This document shows, piece after piece, positions 1,191 through 11,827 of a DNA stretch of 64,000 bases (position 1 is its first letter; every line of letters starts with the position of its first letter). Location: NCBI RefSeq assembly GCF_016899935.1, contig NZ_JACJJK010000001.1, forward strand, positions 62,001-126,000, given 5' to 3'. A program made the position numbers and the translations under genes. Below the pieces are notes generated by a model, which made no database searches, had not been told where the DNA came from, and saw only the letters and a program-made list of their open reading frames with translations. This DNA is from Olsenella uli (lineage in GTDB: Bacteria > Actinomycetota > Coriobacteriia > Coriobacteriales > Atopobiaceae).

Positions 1191-2264
1191 ATGCGACGGA
1201 TTCACGTGGACACCCTCTCGCGCCCCTATGACGTGCTCGTAGGCGCCGGGCTTCTCGACGAGCTCGGCCGGCACGTGTGCGAGACGCTCGGACGTCCCCG
1301 CTGCTGCGTGGTGACCGAGACCACCGTGGGCCCGCTCTACGCGGAGCGGGCCGAGGCGGCGCTCGCCGCAGCGGGCCTCGAGGTCGCGCCGCGCGTCACG
1401 TTCCCGGCCGGCGAGGCCCACAAGACGCTCGCCACGCTCGGCGGCATCCTCGAGGGGCTGGCCGCGCGCGAGCTCACCCGCGACGACGCCGTGGTCGCGC
1501 TCGGCGGCGGCGTCACCGGCGACATGGCCGGGCTCGCCGCAGCCCTCTACCTGCGCGGCATTGCCGTCGTGCAGGTGCCCACGTCGCTGCTCGCCATGGT
1601 CGACTCCTCCGTGGGCGGCAAGACGGCCGTGGACCTGCCCTCGGGCAAGAACCTCGTCGGCGCGTTCTGGCAGCCCTCCCTCGTCGTGGCCGACGTGCGG
1701 ACGCTCTCGACCGTCCCCGCCAATCTCTTCCGCGACTCCTGCGGCGAGGTGGTCAAGCACGCCGTCCTCGCCGACGCCGCGCTGCTCGACGAGCTCAGCG
1801 AGCGGCCCCTCACCGGGGGCGTCAACGAGGGGCGCCTCGCCGACGTCGTCGCCCGCAACGTGGAGATCAAGCGCGACGTGGTGAGCGCCGACGAGCGCGA
1901 GCGGGGCCTGCGCCAGACGCTCAACCTTGGCCACACGCTCGGCCACGCGATCGAGGCGGCGAGCGACTTCGCGCTCGGGCACGGCTCGTGCGTGGCGGCC
2001 GGCCTCTGCCTTATCGCGCGCGCCTCGTCGGCGCGGGGCTGGTGCTCGCCCGAGACGGCGGCGCGCATCGTGCGCTGCGTCGAGGCGCACGGCCTGCCGA
2101 CCGGCACCGACCTGCCCGCCGGCACGCTCATGCGCTACGTCGCCCACGACAAGAAGCGCCACGGGGACGGTGTGAACGTCGTGGTGCCGCGCGAGGTCGG
2201 CCGCTGCGAGGTGCGCCGCCTCGGCCTCGACGACCTGCGCGACCTGATCGAGCTCGGCCGCTGA
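1191..2264 (+). CDS. aroB: 3-Dehydroquinate synthase
   Basis: A 357-residue AroB that converts DAHP to 3-dehydroquinate using NAD and a divalent metal. The glycine-rich NAD-binding stretch GGGVTGDMAG is near residue 105, followed by the DSSVGGKTAVDLPSGKN loop. The metal-binding region LNLGHTLGHAIE near residue 245 and HDKKRHGD near 321 are intact. The length matches the family. The ATG sits 1 nt after the tyrA stop. It is the last gene of the first block of the aro operon, because a 1.6-kb insertion-like module separates it from aroA. Confidence 0.96.
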   Translation: MRRIHVDTLSRPYDVLVGAGLLDELGRHVCETLGRPRCCVVTETTVGPLYAERAEAALAAAGLEVAPRVTFPAGEAHKTLATLGGILEGLAARELTRDDAVVALGGGVTGDMAGLAAALYLRGIAVVQVPTSLLAMVDSSVGGKTAVDLPSGKNLVGAFWQPSLVVADVRTLSTVPANLFRDSCGEVVKHAVLADAALLDELSERPLTGGVNEGRLADVVARNVEIKRDVVSADERERGLRQTLNLGHTLGHAIEAASDFALGHGSCVAAGLCLIARASSARGWCSPETAARIVRCVEAHGLPTGTDLPAGTLMRYVAHDKKRHGDGVNVVVPREVGRCEVRRLGLDDLRDLIELGR

Positions 2265-2292
2265 CGAGCCGACGTTCTTCTCGCCCGCCCGT

Positions 2293-2435
2293 AGGTTGTG
2301 CGCACGCGCCGAGGTTGTGCGCACGCTGGAAGGGTATGCGCACCGGTGCGTTTCCTATATCCGCAGCTAGATGACCTGTCGAGAAAAACCTGCCGCCGCA
2401 ACCGTGCGCATAACCTCAGCGCGTGCGCATAACCT
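2293..2435. repeat. Palindromic element, left copy (19-bp period units)
   Basis: Three AGGTTGTGCGCAC-like units begin at 2293, 2312 and 2331, exactly 19 bp apart. After a central segment, two inverted units (GTGCGCATAACCT) begin at 2404 and 2423, also 19 bp apart, so the whole element is an imperfect palindrome. Its reverse complement matches 3627-3769 at the same length, with roughly 85-88% identity by eye. The pair brackets the nuclease-like gene. Confidence 0.85.
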
Positions 2436-2640
2436 TCTCGGCTTGGGCGAGACCAGGGCAGACCACGTCGGACAAGGCCAAGCCAGCACGTTTTCCCGCT
2501 GAGCCCGGACCGGGCCGCCTGCGGCAGAAACGGCGCCGCCCACGAACTCGTCGTCCGCCCCGCACGCGCCTCATGAGCCCCTGAGCTGCGACAGAATGCC
2601 AGCTGCAAGTCGGCGGCAATGTCGCGCGAGCACCGATTCC

Positions 2641-2646
2641 TATAGT
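2641..2646 (+). promoter_or_regulatory. Candidate -10 (TATAGT), leaderless start
   Basis: TATAGT ends 7 nt before the ATG at 2654. Initiation at the usual distance would fall on or next to the start codon, which would explain the absence of a Shine-Dalgarno sequence. No good -35 hexamer is visible. Confidence 0.45.
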
Positions 2647-2653
2647 GGGTCCC

Positions 2654-3601
2654 ATGATTACCGTCGATGACAGATCCGCCCTGGCGCGCTGGTCGGAGCC
2701 CGGGCTCGGACAGCGGCTCGGGAGCCCCGTCTGCCCGCCCGTCCCCTGGCAGACGGACGGGGCCAGCGTTCGCGACGAGGCCGTCCTCCGGGCGGCGCAG
2801 CTCGCGGCGACGCCGGAGCACCCCCTCCACGTCCTCGTGTCCGACCCGGCCAGGCGCATCCGGCTCCCCGGCGTGATCTCGCACGTGTGGTCGACCGAGC
2901 TCCCCGATGGGGCGCTCCTGCGGCTGACCCCGGAGGTCCTCATCGTCTCCCCGAGCTTCTGCCTGCAGAACATCTCCGCCCGGAGCGACGAGGTCGTCGC
3001 GGCCGTAGCCGCGATGGAGATCTGCGGCTCCTACGGCAGGTCGGCCGGCGCCCCGGACGGGTTCTACAAGCGGGCGCCCCTCGAGACCGTCGAACATCTG
3101 CGGGAGCACTTCGCGGCGACCCACAGCCACGGGGCGAGAAGGGCGCGCGTCGCCGTGGCCCACGTGGTCCCGGGGTCGCGCTCCCCCATGGAGACCGTCG
3201 TCGTCCTGCTCTTCACCCTTCCCGTCTCGCTCGGCGGCTGCGGTCTGCCCGCCCCTGAGCTCAACGCCCGGATCGAGATTCCGACCAGCCTGCGCGCCGC
3301 GCTCGGGAAGCCCTACGTGGTGGTCGACCTCTGCTGGACAGACCGCCGCGTCATCCTGGAGTACGACAGCTACCTCTGGCACTCGAGCGCCCGCGCGGTC
3401 GACTCGGACAGCACCCGCAACGAGGGGCTGCGCGACGAGGGCTGGATGGTGCGCTCCGTGACTGCGGGGATGCTCTCCAACGATGCGATGCGTCGCGAGC
3501 TCGTCGCAAAGGTGACGGCGCGCTTCGGACGGGCGCTTCTGGCCACGGAGGCCTTCGACCGGCTGCAGCACGACCTCGTGCACCGCCTGCTGCGCTGCTA
3601 G
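2654..3601 (+). CDS. DUF559-type PD-(D/E)XK nuclease-like protein
   Basis: A 315-residue protein of unproven function. The C-terminal third has the layout of the DUF559/Vsr-like nuclease fold: VVVDLCW, then ILEYDSYLWH, then an SDSTRNEGLRDEGW segment that resembles the family's R-D-x-x-L-x-x-x-G-W motif. An Asp and a Glu sit at PD-(D/E)XK positions, but the usual Lys is not obvious. The N-terminal two thirds resemble actinobacterial 'endonuclease domain-containing' proteins and include a GSRSPMET segment. A GTG at 2645 is the alternative start; I prefer ATG 2654 because of the -10 spacing. The gene and two flanking inverted palindromic elements interrupt an otherwise tight aro operon, which suggests insertion. 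Related DUF559 proteins occur near AbiEi-like antitoxins, but no partner gene is present here. Confidence 0.75.
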   Translation: MITVDDRSALARWSEPGLGQRLGSPVCPPVPWQTDGASVRDEAVLRAAQLAATPEHPLHVLVSDPARRIRLPGVISHVWSTELPDGALLRLTPEVLIVSPSFCLQNISARSDEVVAAVAAMEICGSYGRSAGAPDGFYKRAPLETVEHLREHFAATHSHGARRARVAVAHVVPGSRSPMETVVVLLFTLPVSLGGCGLPAPELNARIEIPTSLRAALGKPYVVVDLCWTDRRVILEYDSYLWHSSARAVDSDSTRNEGLRDEGWMVRSVTAGMLSNDAMRRELVAKVTARFGRALLATEAFDRLQHDLVHRLLRC

Positions 3602-3626
3602 GGCGCGGTTCTTCTCGCCTGCCCGC

Positions 3627-3769
3627 AGGTCGTGCGCACGCGCGGAGGTTATGCGCACGGTTCCGGCGGGCGGTCTTTCTCGCCAGGCTATCTAGCTGCG
3701 AATATAGGAAACGCACCTGTGCGCACACCCTTCGAACGTGCGCATAACCTCGGCACGTGCGCATAACCT
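3627..3769. repeat. Palindromic element, right copy (inverted relative to the left copy)
   Basis: Two forward units begin at 3627 and 3646 and three inverted units at 3719, 3738 and 3757, each set at exactly 19-bp spacing. Read in reverse complement it has the same unit count, order and 143-bp length as 2293-2435, including the shared central segment around TTTCCTATAT. A GGTTCTTCTCGCC motif (3607-3619) lies just outside it. Confidence 0.85.
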
Positions 3770-3878: not shown

Positions 3879-5198
3879 TTGAACATCACCGTACATCCTG
3901 GCCCCCTCGGCGGCGAGCTCGACGCGCCGTCCTCGAAGTCGGAGGCGCACCGCGCGCTCATCTGTGCCGCGTTCGCCCCCGGCACGACGGACCTCGCCTG
4001 CTCGACCACCTCGGCGGACATCGACGCCACCGTCTCGTGCCTCGAGTCCCTCGGCGCGCGCGTCGCCCGCACCCGGACGGGGTTCCGCGTGCGGCCCGTC
4101 CCCGGCTCCTCCGCGACCGACAACCTGCCCGAGCCCGCCCGCGACGCGACGCTCGACTGCGGCGAGTCCGGCTCCACGCTCCGCTTCCTGCTGCCCGTCG
4201 TCTGCGCGCTCGGCTGTGGCGCCTCGCTCGTCGGGCACGGGCGGCTGCCGCAGCGCCCACTCTCGCCCCTCTACGAGCAGCTCGTCGAGCACGGCGCCGC
4301 GCTCTCGCCCCAGGGGTCGAGCCCGCTCGTCGTGCGCGGCCGCGTCCGCGCCGGCCGCTTTGAGCTCGCCGGCAACGTCTCGTCCCAGTACGTGAGCGGC
4401 CTGCTGCTCGCCGCGCCGCTGTTGCGCGCGCCCGTCGAGGTGGTCGTCAGCGAGCCGGTCGAGTCCCGGCCCTACATCGAGATCACCCTCTCCGTGCTGC
4501 GCCGCTTTGGCGTCGAGGTCTCCCGCTCGCGCGGGTGCGACGCTGCGGGCAACCCGGCGCTCGTCTACGACGTCGCCGCCTCGGACGGCCTCTCGTCCCC
4601 CGGCTCGTTCGCGGTCGGCGGGGACTGGTCGAACGCCGCGTTCTGGCTCGTCGCCGGCGCGCTCGGCGAGCGCGGCGTCGCCGTGCGCGGCCTCGACGCC
4701 GGGAGCGCCCAGGGCGACCGCACCATCCTCGCCGCGCTCTCGCTGCTCGGGGCCCATGTCCTGCGCACCCCCTCCGGCGCCGCCGTGCGCCCGGCCGAGC
4801 TCAGGGGCGCGCGGCTCGACGTCAGCGACTGCCCCGACCTCGTCCCGCCGCTCGCCGCAGCGGCGGCGTTCGCCGAGGGGACGACGCGCATCACCGGCGC
4901 CGCGCGCCTGCGCCTCAAGGAGTCCGACCGCATCGAGACCGTCTCAGCCGCGCTGCGCGCGCTCGGCGCCGTCGTGGAGACGGACGACGACGGTCTCTCC
5001 GTCACGGGGGCGCCCGCCCTGCGCGGCGGCACCGTCGACGCCGCCAACGACCACCGCATCGCGATGATGGCGGCGGTGCTCGCCACGCGCTGCCAGAACC
5101 CGACCACCATCCTCGGCGCCGAGTGCGTCGAGAAGTCCTACCCGCGCTTCTTCGAGGACCTCGAGCGCCTCGGGGGCCGCGTCGAAAAGGAGGCATGA
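3879..5198 (+). CDS. aroA: 3-Phosphoshikimate 1-carboxyvinyltransferase (EPSP synthase)
   Basis: A 439-residue EPSP synthase (shikimate-3-phosphate plus PEP). Landmarks are DAPSSKSEAHRALI near the N-terminus (phosphate-binding Lys), CGESGSTLRFLLP (the counterpart of the GNAGTAxR loop), LRLKESDRIE and NDHRIAMMAAV near the C-terminus. The start is TTG 3879: the protein reads NITVHPG immediately after it, and AAGGA at 3866-3870 is well placed, whereas upstream ATGs in frame lie inside the palindromic element. The stop TGA overlaps the start of aroC. It is the first gene after the inserted module, so it probably has its own promoter in 3770-3878. Confidence 0.93.
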   Translation: MNITVHPGPLGGELDAPSSKSEAHRALICAAFAPGTTDLACSTTSADIDATVSCLESLGARVARTRTGFRVRPVPGSSATDNLPEPARDATLDCGESGSTLRFLLPVVCALGCGASLVGHGRLPQRPLSPLYEQLVEHGAALSPQGSSPLVVRGRVRAGRFELAGNVSSQYVSGLLLAAPLLRAPVEVVVSEPVESRPYIEITLSVLRRFGVEVSRSRGCDAAGNPALVYDVAASDGLSSPGSFAVGGDWSNAAFWLVAGALGERGVAVRGLDAGSAQGDRTILAALSLLGAHVLRTPSGAAVRPAELRGARLDVSDCPDLVPPLAAAAAFAEGTTRITGAARLRLKESDRIETVSAALRALGAVVETDDDGLSVTGAPALRGGTVDAANDHRIAMMAAVLATRCQNPTTILGAECVEKSYPRFFEDLERLGGRVEKEA

Positions 5199-6452: not shown

Positions 6453-7604
6453 ATGGCAGAGCTCTCTGACCTCAGACGGCGAATCGACGAGATAGACTCC
6501 CGGATCTTCGAGCTCTTCGCGGAGCGTACAACGGTCGCGGAGGAGGTCGCGGCCTACAAGCGCGAGAGCGGGATGCGGATCTTCGACCCAGCTCGCGAGC
6601 GCGCCAAGGTCGCCGACGCCGCCGAGCACGTGCCCGAGGACCTGGCCACCTACGCCCAGGTCATGATGGAGCTCCTCATGGAGGCATCTCGGGCGCGGCA
6701 GCACGAGCTTCTCGACGACACCGCCGACGACGCCGCGCTGCGAGCCATCGCCGCCGCACGCCAGCGGACTCCCGAGCTCTTCCCGCCGTCGGCTCGCGTC
6801 TCCTGCCAGGGTGTGGAGGGCGCCTACTCCCAGATCGCGGCCGAGAAGATCTTCCGCCGGCCCACCATCTCCTACGCACCGACCTTCGACGGCGTCTTCC
6901 GCGCCGTGGGACAGGGCCTCGCGCGCTACGGCGTCATCCCGTTCGAGAACTCCACGGCCGGCTCCGTCCGCCAGGTGTTCGACCTCATGATGGAGAACTC
7001 GTTCCACATCGTCCGCACCACCCGCGTGAAGGTCGACCACAACCTCCTCGCCAACCCGGGAGCACGCCTCTCCGAAATCCGGGACATCTACAGCCACGAG
7101 CAGGCGATCGGCCAGTGCGCGGAGTTCCTCTCCGGCCTGCCGGACGTTCGGGTGCACGTCTGCGAGAACACCGCCGTCGCCGCCGAGCGCGTCGCCGAGT
7201 CGGGCCGGACGGACGTGGCGGCGCTGTCATCCTTGCCGTGCGCGGACCTCTACGGCCTCGACGTGCTCTCCTCGAGCGTCCAGGACCGCGACAACAACTA
7301 CACGCGCTTCGCATGCATCTCCCGCGACCTGGAGATCTATCCCGGGGCTGACCGCACCTCGCTCATGATCGTGCTCCCCCACGAGCCCGGCTCGCTCTAC
7401 AAGCTGCTCGCCAAGTTCTACGCGCTCGACATCAACCTCCTCAAGCTCGAGAGCCGCCCCATCCCCGAGCGTGACTTCGAGTTCATGTTCTACTTCGAGC
7501 TCGACTGCCCCGTCGCCGCCCCGGAGTTTTCCTCCCTCATGGCGACGATCGGCGGGCTCTGCCAGGAGTGCCGCTACCTCGGCAGCTACGCGGAGGTGCT
7601 CTAG
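6453..7604 (+). CDS. pheA: Bifunctional chorismate mutase / prephenate dehydratase (P-protein)
   Basis: A 383-residue P-protein that converts chorismate to phenylpyruvate. Residues about 5-90 form an AroQ-type chorismate mutase helix bundle (LRRRIDEIDSRIFELFAER, then VAAYKRESGM). Residues about 112-290 are prephenate dehydratase, with VSCQGVEGAYSQ at its start, PFENSTAGSV and the catalytic NNYTRF motif. The C-terminal ACT domain (HEPGSLYKLLAKF, then ESRPIPERDFEF) probably binds Phe for feedback inhibition. ATG 6453 follows GAAAGG with normal spacing. The conserved-core hairpin lies 29 nt upstream; no leader peptide rich in Phe codons was found. Confidence 0.95.
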   Translation: MAELSDLRRRIDEIDSRIFELFAERTTVAEEVAAYKRESGMRIFDPARERAKVADAAEHVPEDLATYAQVMMELLMEASRARQHELLDDTADDAALRAIAAARQRTPELFPPSARVSCQGVEGAYSQIAAEKIFRRPTISYAPTFDGVFRAVGQGLARYGVIPFENSTAGSVRQVFDLMMENSFHIVRTTRVKVDHNLLANPGARLSEIRDIYSHEQAIGQCAEFLSGLPDVRVHVCENTAVAAERVAESGRTDVAALSSLPCADLYGLDVLSSSVQDRDNNYTRFACISRDLEIYPGADRTSLMIVLPHEPGSLYKLLAKFYALDINLLKLESRPIPERDFEFMFYFELDCPVAAPEFSSLMATIGGLCQECRYLGSYAEVL

Positions 7605-7605
7605 C

Positions 7606-8898
7606 GTGGGCGCGGCCGAGAAGGGCCTCGGCGACGCACCGTACGGCCTCGTCGGACGCAGGCTCGGCCACAGCTGGTCGGCGCAGATCCACGAGCGCCT
7701 GGGATCGGCCCCCTATCGGCTCGTCGAGCTCGAGCCCGACGAGCTGGCTCCCTTCGTCCGGCAGGGCTCGTGGCGCGGCCTCAACGTGACCATCCCCTAC
7801 AAGCGCGAGGCGGCGCGCCTGGCCGACGTTCGCTCCGCCGCCGTCGAGCGCCTCGGTGCCGCAAACACCCTGGTGCGCGCCGAGGACGGCTCCATCGTCG
7901 CCGAGAACACCGACGTGCTCGGCTTCGCATGGATGCTCTCCCGCTTCTGTCGCGAGCGTCTCGGGGCGTCGCCGCGCGAGCTGCTCGAGGGCGAGAAGGT
8001 CATCGTCCTCGGAAGCGGCGGAGCGAGCCAGGCCGTCGTCGACGCTCTCTCCAACACGGTGGGGGCGGAACCCGTCGTCATCTCCCGGTCCGGAACCGAG
8101 ACCTACGACACGCTCGTCGAGCGTCACGCCGACGCGGTCCTTCTCGTCAACACGACCCCGGTCGGCATGTTTCCCGAGTGCCCGGCGTCCCCCGTCCCCG
8201 AGGGGGACCTCGCCGCGCTCGGGAGCCTCAGGGGCGTCCTCGACGTCGTCTACAACCCCACGCGGACCGGCCTCGTCCTCGCCGCCGAGCGCCTCGGCCT
8301 GCCCGCCGAGAGCGGCCTCGCGATGCTCGTCGCCCAGGCGCTCTACGCAAGCGAGCTCTTTCAGGGACGCGACCTCGACGACTCCCTCGTCACCGAGGTC
8401 GAGCGACAGATCGCCGGTCAGGCGGAGAACGTCGTCTTGATCGGGATGCCCGGGGCGGGCAAGACGAGCTGCGGGCGCGAGCTCGCGCGCCTGCTCGGAC
8501 GCCCCTTCGTCGACCTCGACGACGCCGTCGAGGTCGCGTGCGGCCGCAGCCCCGCCCAGATCATCGAGCAGGACGGCGAGGCGGCCTTCCGCGCTGTGGA
8601 GACGGAGACGGCCGGCCGCTACGGCGCCCGCTCGGGCCTCGTCGTCGCCTGCGGCGGCGGCGTGGTCACGCGCCCGGAGAACCGCGACCTGCTGTGCCAG
8701 AACGGCCGGGTCGTCCTCCTCGACCGCCCGCTGGGCGAGCTCAGCTCGGACGGCCGGCCCATGTCGCGCTCGCGCGGGGTGGAGCGGCTCGCCGCCGAGC
8801 GCATGCCGGCCTACCGTGCCTGGGCGGACGTCACGCTCCCCTGCACCGGCTCGCCGGCCGGGGACGCCGCCGCGCTGAGGGAGCTTCTCGACCTCTAG
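7606..8898 (+). CDS. aroE-aroK: Shikimate dehydrogenase - shikimate kinase fusion
   Basis: A single 430-residue reading frame fuses two consecutive pathway steps. Residues 1 to about 270 are AroE: GRRLGHSWSAQIH binds shikimate, NVTIPYK carries the catalytic Lys and AENTD the catalytic Asp, and VLGSGGASQAVVDAL is the NADP Rossmann loop. Residues about 275-430 are shikimate kinase: Walker A GMPGAGKTS, DLDDAVE and CGGGVV are all intact, although this domain is on the short side (about 156 residues). The GTG start at 7606 lies 1 nt after the pheA stop, with GGAGG about ten bases upstream. No separate aroK is present in the cluster, so the fusion presumably supplies both activities. Confidence 0.93.
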   Translation: MGAAEKGLGDAPYGLVGRRLGHSWSAQIHERLGSAPYRLVELEPDELAPFVRQGSWRGLNVTIPYKREAARLADVRSAAVERLGAANTLVRAEDGSIVAENTDVLGFAWMLSRFCRERLGASPRELLEGEKVIVLGSGGASQAVVDALSNTVGAEPVVISRSGTETYDTLVERHADAVLLVNTTPVGMFPECPASPVPEGDLAALGSLRGVLDVVYNPTRTGLVLAAERLGLPAESGLAMLVAQALYASELFQGRDLDDSLVTEVERQIAGQAENVVLIGMPGAGKTSCGRELARLLGRPFVDLDDAVEVACGRSPAQIIEQDGEAAFRAVETETAGRYGARSGLVVACGGGVVTRPENRDLLCQNGRVVLLDRPLGELSSDGRPMSRSRGVERLAAERMPAYRAWADVTLPCTGSPAGDAAALRELLDL

Positions 8899-10777: not shown

Positions 10778-11827
10778 ATGCCCAACGAGGGAAGCTACGA
10801 GGCTGCCAAGCGCAGGAGCGACGAGGTCCACGCTGACCTGCTCGTCCACCCCGAGAACTACACGATGCTCACGGGCGACCGCCCGACGGGCAGGCTGCAC
10901 CTGGGCCACTACTTCGGGACGCTCGTGGACCGCGTGCGCCTGCAGGACCTGGGCGTGCGCACCAACATCATCATCGCGGACTACCAGGTCATCACCGACC
11001 GCGACACCACCGAGCACATCAGAGACAACGTCTACAACATGGTCATCGACTACCTGGCCTGCGGGATCGACCCGGCCAAGACGATGATCTTCACGCACTC
11101 GGCGGTGCCCGAGCTGAACCAGCTCATGCTGCCGTTCCTCTCCCTCGTGACCGAGGCCGAGATGGAGCGCAACCCCACGGTCAAGGCCGAGCAGGAGGCG
11201 TCCGGCCATGCGCTCACGGGGCTCCTGCTCACCTACCCCGTGCACCAGGCCTGCGACATCCTCTTCTGCAAGGGCAACATCGTGCCCGTGGGCCGCGACC
11301 AGCTCCCGCACATCGAGATCACGTCCAAGATCGCGCGCCGCTTCAACGAGCGCTACGGCTGCGTCTTCCCGGACGTGACGGGCCTTCTCACCTCCACGCC
11401 GCTGCTCCCGGGCCTGGACGGCCGCAAGATGAGCAAATCCTACGGCAACGCCATCTCCATCTCCATGACGGCGGAGGAGACGGCCAAGCTGATCAAGAAG
11501 TCCAAGAGCGACTCCGAGCGCATGATCACCTTTGACCCCGAGAGCCGCCCGGAGATCTCCGGCCTGCTCACCACGGCCGGCATCTGCACCGGGCGCGACC
11601 CGAGAGAGATCGCCGAGGAGATCGGCATGGGCGGCGCGGGGCAGCTCAAGCGCGTGGTCACCGAGGCCGTGAACGGCTACTTCGCGCCCATTCGCGCGCG
11701 CCGCGAGGAGATCGCCCGCGACATGGGCTACGTGGCCGACGTCCTCCACGAGGGCAACCGTCGCGCGCGCGAGATCGCTGCCGCGACCCTCGACGAGGTG
11801 CGCGAGGCCATGGGCATGGTCTACTAG
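10778..11827 (+). CDS. trpS: Tryptophanyl-tRNA synthetase
   Basis: A 349-residue class I synthetase charging tRNA-Trp. HIGH corresponds to LHLGHYFG near residue 38 and KMSKS is present exactly at GRKMSKSYGNA near residue 213. ATG 10778 follows GTGGAGGA with typical spacing. There is no room for a T-box or a Trp-codon leader peptide between fthC and trpS, so no attenuation signal is claimed. The sequence belongs to the shorter TrpRS type common in Actinobacteria and Firmicutes. A palindromic segment follows the stop. Confidence 0.94.
   Translation: MPNEGSYEAAKRRSDEVHADLLVHPENYTMLTGDRPTGRLHLGHYFGTLVDRVRLQDLGVRTNIIIADYQVITDRDTTEHIRDNVYNMVIDYLACGIDPAKTMIFTHSAVPELNQLMLPFLSLVTEAEMERNPTVKAEQEASGHALTGLLLTYPVHQACDILFCKGNIVPVGRDQLPHIEITSKIARRFNERYGCVFPDVTGLLTSTPLLPGLDGRKMSKSYGNAISISMTAEETAKLIKKSKSDSERMITFDPESRPEISGLLTTAGICTGRDPREIAEEIGMGGAGQLKRVVTEAVNGYFAPIRARREEIARDMGYVADVLHEGNRRAREIAAATLDEVREAMGMVY

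Follow-up and report, generated by a model that had tools for sequence, protein, structure and literature searches.

We find that, in Olsenella uli and related gut bacteria, a predicted nuclease gene and the palindromic elements on either side of it form one co-varying system, which probably operates in the manner of REP/RAYT but with an enzyme of another kind. That gene and repeats are coupled is observed, and we have high confidence in it. The likeliest function is mobilisation of the elements by the protein, which we infer and to which we give a slightly better than even chance. We regard as evenly balanced the broader proposal that this is a second, independent repeat-spreading system, in which a domesticated Vsr/EDxHD-type nuclease joined to an AbiEi-like domain disperses its own palindromes, with units and enzyme co-evolving. 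In the parts of Nunvar 2010 (PMC2817692) drawn on here, RAYTs are always found between two inverted REPs and co-evolve with them, they evolve faster than their neighbours, and their presence is tied to REP abundance. The REP/RAYT and REPIN systems, as treated in the relevant parts of Bertels and Rainey 2011 (PMC3116915), serve as a further comparison.

The window, that is, the whole stretch of 64,000 nucleotides that was analysed, is contig C49, positions 62001 to 126000, of a 2.13-Mb genome in 131 contigs (G000). The order along it is aroB, element 1, the nuclease-like gene, element 2 and aroA (Table 1). An initial annotation of this DNA had described two 143-bp elements with 19-bp-spaced units, inverted around one gene in an aro context, and we confirm its coordinates. 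The two elements are identical, in inverted orientation, at 125 of 143 positions (inverted-repeat search: 144 nt, 88% complementary). Each contains units of type TGCGCAYAACCT at 19-nt steps, three of them inverted and two direct, on either side of an asymmetric centre that holds GCAGCTAG-N9-CGAGAA. The motif GTGCGCAYAACCT, allowing up to two mismatches, has 12 matches in the window versus 2.3 expected (0 of 100 shuffles reached as many), and 10 of the 12 lie in the two elements, spaced by 19 nt along each arm. The same annotation called the elements imperfect palindromes, which holds for their outer arms, where 30 and 29 of 33 pairs match, but not over the whole length (38 and 39 of 71 pairs), palindromy being confined to those arms. 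Folding of element 1 as single-stranded DNA gives z = -6.2. At the host locus, aroB and aroA are the flanking genes; they overlap by 4 nt in 9 of the 29 aroB loci examined.

Table 1. Features of the nuclease-like locus, in window coordinates.
Feature	Position	Strand	Details
Element 1, 143 bp	2293..2435	+	3 minus-strand units (2293, 2312, 2331), centre, 2 plus-strand units (2404, 2423)
Central core of element 1, GCAGCTAG-N9-CGAGAAAAAC, form of motif common to clades	2363..2389	+	sequence reading
Nuclease-like gene, 315-aa protein	2654..3601	+	ATG start; possible alternative start, GTG at 2645
Element 2, 143 bp, inverted copy of element 1	3627..3769	-	minus-strand units 3627, 3646; plus-strand units 3719, 3738, 3757
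Central core of element 2, GCAGCTAG-N9-CGAGAAAGAC	3673..3699	-	sequence reading
CGAGAAGAAC motif directly outside element 1	2274..2283	-	motif search
CGAGAAGAAC motif, from the gene's stop to element 2	3608..3617	-	motif search
aroB, left neighbour (context)	1191..2264	+	
aroA, right neighbour (context)	3879..5198	+	

The window pair belongs to a dispersed family. A search of the host's own genome recovered 14 near full-length copies, the pair included (E values from 3e-70 to 3e-10), and two further degraded copies at C60:185.5 kb and C49:157.2 kb. Thirteen of these 16 copies are exactly 143 nt long. The copy nearest to element 1 is element 2 (87% identical), and the others are 70 to 79% identical to it. 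All 16 are intergenic (10 in tandem, 4 in convergent and 2 in divergent contexts) by crude gene calls, which come from a codon-usage model of our own; for one copy the nearest calls lie kilobases away. In one region (L071:9893-13830; G000 C49:157.2-161.1 kb), a Y1_Tnp (RAYT-type) gene is located about 3 kb from a degraded copy. The motif CGAGAAGAAC, or its core, was seen directly outside several elements and also in element centres. It has 69 matches versus 4.2 expected, the bulk of which probably reflect codon use; within 60 nt of the 32 element ends we counted 11 matches, a mild enrichment over the roughly 1.4 matches per 30-nt bin found farther away. We considered CGAGAAGAAC as an insertion target motif and dropped it, its enrichment outside the elements being modest. 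Rfam matches to the element were sub-threshold microRNA families only, and we took them as chance.

Every close ortholog examined is flanked by elements. Of 60 genomes (the host and 59 others), 49 contain a match to the protein, many of these matches being distant paralogs, and close orthologs (at least 52% identity over most of the length) occur in 19 of 31 same-genus genomes, the host included. The G026 ortholog has an in-frame stop, and that of G015 is a fragment. A scan of further genomes yielded 20 close orthologs (L077-L096) and four distant ones. Together with the window, the close orthologs make 21 loci at eight sites: aroB-aroA (six loci), four sites with two to four species each, and three single ones; at one of the eight, the gene in L094 is reversed. 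By reading, elements lie on both sides of the gene in 21/21 loci, which answers an earlier proposal to check whether each copy of this gene subtype has a flanking pair. The downstream element of L083 has diverged, and that of L085 lies beyond a hicAB-like gene pair. Nor is the gene conserved in all relatives without the elements, as only some species have it at aroB-aroA, always with elements.

Aligning upstream with downstream flanks gave a score above all eight cross controls in 16 of the 21 loci. The exceptions are L079, L080, L083, L092 and L096; in four of these five, a related locus may be behind the high control, and L080 is simply weak. Flank scores of the four distant paralogs were 12 to 23. 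The initial annotation described an inverted pair, but inversion is not the rule: the pair is inverted in the window, yet of the 21 loci 14 have a direct pair and only 7 an inverted one (L079 and L080 are close calls). In L086 and L092, a hicAB-like toxin-antitoxin pair, named from a reading of its translation and not from a database match, lies between two elements and adjoins the nuclease gene (at about 7000-7900). The hicAB-like pair of L085 is at about 7000-7600.

Units and gene vary together, and the element centre stays. Arm units differ by clade, and the two flanks within a genome share a unit type, least clearly in L083. The types found include TGCGCATAACC, TGCGCATACC, GTCGCATAACCT, TGTACATAACCG, TGTACATACCC, TGTACGTAACCG, TGTACACAACG, TGCAACTTCGTACAC and GTGTACACGATGCG. 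While the units vary, the core motif GCAGSTAG-N6-TGGCGAGAAGAAC is kept in the element centre. Allowing up to three mismatches, it is present in 31/31 same-genus genomes, 3 to 53 times in each (0 to 2 for the reversed control), and in 5 of 29 other genomes, once or twice each; some of the matches at three mismatches may be coding background. Genomes with a close ortholog have a median of 18 core motifs (n = 19) versus 7 in those without (n = 10; Mann-Whitney test, P = 0.008), a comparison that leaves out G015 and G026 and whose P value ignores kinship and genome completeness. Four genomes (G008, G010, G017 and G024) have 12 to 19 core motifs and no close ortholog found. Two others (G020 and G028) have the gene and only four and five core motifs, and the core pattern may miss the centres of their elements. 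Dispersed elements track the gene, and the possibility that they spread with no relation to it is not borne out. In 13 of 16 non-independent pairs, the gene itself shows lower identity than its neighbours do; in the other three it is as conserved or more so.

One genome with two close paralogs, G025, is informative here. We read 20 of its 31 core matches. In eight, the unit is that of the first paralog (TGTACGAAGTTGCA and its complement), and two of the eight are that gene's own flanks; nine have a variant unit, AGGGTATGTACAC, several with the TGTACGAAGTTGCA-type inner sequence. The second paralog's unit, TGCGCATACC, is found in two, one of which flanks that gene, and one match is ambiguous. 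Core matches with the units of both paralogs are thus present, and at least two element families therefore exist in one genome. These data bear on the proposal that the elements are REP-like sequences moved by Y1 (RAYT-type) transposases, with the nuclease gene a passenger. A Y1_Tnp match does occur in 28 of the 31 same-genus genomes searched (the exceptions are G004, G019 and G026), yet unit type follows the nuclease gene, even where two paralogs share a genome. Moreover, G004 and G019, which are 98-99% complete, have elements without a Y1_Tnp match, and the host's own Y1_Tnp gene (C49:160631-160966) sits between different palindromes, GGGGACNGTCCCC (L071 positions 12932 and 13803, and another at 11704). 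We already disfavour this proposal and consider it very improbable.

The protein was initially annotated as a DUF559-like nuclease. The predicted fold favours a nuclease, of a Vsr-like kind, whereas the Pfam match to DUF559 (PF04480) falls below its cut-off (12.4 versus 20.6 bits), as does that to MTES_1575 (16.3 versus 38.2 bits). Among 19 orthologs at E ≤ 0.1, MTES_1575 was matched in 17 and DUF559 in 5, and Y1_Tnp was absent from the Pfam matches of these orthologs and of the window protein. The DUF559 profile had no match in the host genome at E ≤ 0.001. The best AlphaFold2 model has a mean pLDDT of 86.4 (the remaining four, 69-74). Structure comparison with VIA-align matched model residues 177-292 to the homing endonuclease I-Bth0305I (3r3p; Z 8.2, rmsd 3.1, 88 residues), aligned Vsr (1cw0) to the nuclease domain at Z 6.1, and aligned residues 68-195 of the type IV antitoxin AbiEi (6y8q) to model residues 1-172 at Z 6.9, all middling Z values. 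Because Foldseek alone gave no match to the predicted model at E ≤ 0.001, we grade the fold as likely but not certain: an AbiEi-C-terminal-like domain (about 1-172) followed by a Vsr/EDxHD-type nuclease domain (about 175-292). In the model, the C-terminal domain would resemble I-Bth0305I, an EDxHD enzyme, and Vsr both in fold and in an invariant acidic/His set. This set comprises E180, D225, E236 and H243, putative counterparts of the EDxHD/Vsr catalytic residues, which are invariant in the 19 orthologs and also in a 12-row set that includes a sister subfamily and L055 (see below). No DNA-binding domain was identified in the protein, and a search of NCBIfam with three family members found nothing at E ≤ 0.1. 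A plasmid search returned one 28% match, in Collinsella.

The AbiEi family binds inverted repeats and autoregulates. The elements could be binding sites of the protein for gene control, or self-marks of a defence or toxin-antitoxin device, and be spread by host recombination or by other enzymes. The predicted AbiEi resemblance of the N-terminal part is in keeping with this, as are the phased 19-bp units, which would suit cooperative protein binding, and the hicAB-like pair between two elements in L086 and L092. However, the aligned AbiEi range starts at residue 68 and has no winged helix, which presumably lies outside that range. Unlike AbiEi, the predicted domain is fused to a nuclease and has no nucleotidyltransferase toxin next to it, its neighbours in the window being the elements, aroB and aroA; PADLOC likewise gave no match for the protein at E ≤ 10. 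Elements are also found on the gene's downstream side and at loci unrelated to it. We judge this alternative unlikely.

Comparison of sites among relatives bears on gain and loss. We found aroB in 29 of the 36 genomes searched, the host included. The aroB-aroA junction holds gene and elements in 4 of these 29, a solo element in 1 (G010), and neither in 20; in the other 4, aroA is not next to aroB. Occupied, solo-element and empty junctions thus all exist, empty ones having been suggested as a check at the outset. Two genomes outside the set, G025 and G027, are also occupied, for a total of six occupied species. Because six species have the aroB-aroA site in common, the gene itself appears to move rarely. 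No close ortholog was found in the G010 assembly, whose completeness is 76%. One element is present in G025 and absent from G003 at a collinear site whose flanks are 96-97% identical; the site shows an 8-nt overlap and imperfect ends, and gain and loss are indistinguishable there. A target-site duplication was considered and dropped, given only this 8-nt overlap with imperfect flanks. Two other presence/absence candidates (site 3 upstream and site X) were replacements, not clean insertions. We used only near-complete matches for sites, as tblastx synteny is noisy in GC-rich DNA. In L095, an element is chimeric, joining the left part of one L092 element to the right part of another, and the hicAB-like segment is missing, as expected from recombination of direct copies. 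A clean 221-bp difference between L085 (3361-3583) and L086 involves a different palindrome, CTTGAGTGGGCAA, perhaps of another element family. Additionally, a 7.6-kb block of G025 (L220:10072-17691) without a collinear match in G003 holds element-like stretches.

Homing offers another account of these sites, in which the gene would spread by cutting resident elements and being copied in by repair, so that solo elements would be its targets. The solo element in G010 at the same aroB-aroA site suits such a cycle, as does a gene found at eight sites and adjoining elements each time, and the best solved match of the modelled nuclease domain is itself a homing endonuclease, I-Bth0305I. Against this, the gene has a whole element on each side and does not interrupt one, and homing leaves the many-copy dispersal of the elements themselves unexplained. 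Unlike EDxHD homing endonucleases, this is a free-standing chromosomal gene with dispersed palindromes, and no relatives were found in the phage and viral-contig collections searched. We consider homing distinctly unlikely.

We return to a REP/RAYT-like system as the preferred reading. The protein would recognise its own element by the phased units, with the DNA probably in hairpin or cruciform form, and would cut at or near the conserved centre. Cutting could then lead to repair-based copying or insertion of elements elsewhere, and recombination of direct copies would delete the intervening DNA, so that a solo element remains. At some sites a genome has elements, either alone or with the gene, where relatives have none; copy numbers of the elements are modest, at most tens per genome. 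The RAYT-analogous arrangement first proposed for this locus gains from the flanking pairs in 21/21 loci, the dispersed copies, the variation of units with the gene and a gene mostly less conserved than its neighbours, but loses inversion as a rule.

As far as the cited parts of the REP/RAYT literature go, the resemblance covers a gene between two palindromic repeats, cognate repeats dispersed intergenically, co-variation of gene and repeat, a gene that is for the most part less conserved than those around it, repeat abundance that goes with presence of the gene, and more than one gene/repeat pair per genome. In contrast to REP/RAYT, the enzyme here is a predicted Vsr/EDxHD-type nuclease with an AbiEi-like domain, not a Y1/HUH transposase of the IS200/IS605 kind; each element consists of units phased at 19-bp spacing on both sides of a long conserved centre; and the flanking pair is direct in 14/21 loci and inverted in 7/21. 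REP/RAYT systems have a GTAG tag at the hairpin foot; here GCAGGTAG or GCAGCTAG is conserved, though in the element centre. MITEs and CGTC-type REPs without a known enzyme, as presented in the portion of PMC3733652 used here, are likewise short, dispersed, palindromic and intergenic; unlike there, a candidate enzyme gene here consistently has its own element on its flanks. We found no description of such a nuclease/palindrome system in the open-access library searched. For many intergenic repeats of bacteria no enzyme is known, and a poorly understood nuclease family that co-varies with its own repeats is a candidate. The natural protein/unit pairs make recognition testable by simple swaps. 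If our reading is true, REP-like repeats would need no HUH transposase, which would point to more than one origin of the REP/RAYT way of life.

Flanking repeats extend beyond the window subfamily. A sister subfamily, 38-42% identical to the window protein, has simple hairpins around its genes, with arms that are common to both flanks and that differ among species at apparently one conserved locus. Eleven of its 17 loci pass the flank score, and 5 of the other 6 have common arms by hairpin search (16/17 in all; L054 fails). When six genomes were searched with six joined hairpins (E ≤ 0.01), the hairpins proved to be dispersed almost exclusively in the genome they came from: 41 places matched the genome's own hairpin and 4 matched another's; the 41 comprise 12 flanks and 29 other places, some of them partial, and include a 97% copy near a contig end (G018 C33:15988). 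In another genus, L055 (G034 C2:205.3-207.2 kb) has tandem 31-bp repeats on both sides of the gene, 14 before and 7 after by short motif, and the repeats recur at three other regions of its genome (C6, C5 and C1). Two L055-type arrays (L239) border a regulator-like open frame. Tandem repeats before and after the gene, together with the strong folding of element 1, would be compatible with repeats acting as RNA in the style of a type III toxin-antitoxin system, the protein being the toxin. We find this barely credible, as elements in either orientation lie on both sides of the gene, and further copies are scattered far from it.

In a tree of 74 proteins, the window subfamily, the sister subfamily and L055 form one clade (97/91). 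A flank score of at least 25, from 800-nt flanks for the window subfamily and 600-nt flanks for the rest, was reached by 32 of 39 loci inside the clade versus 6 of 35 outside it (P = 3e-8). L166, L169, L194, L195 and L198 pass this score. By eye, L191, L195 and L198 have real-looking flanking repeats. The flanked-gene trait is strongly clustered in the clade, yet it is not confined to it, because L191, L195 and L198, which lie outside, look real. L198 (G038 C125), a more distant relative, has near-identical inverted flanks of about 360 bp.
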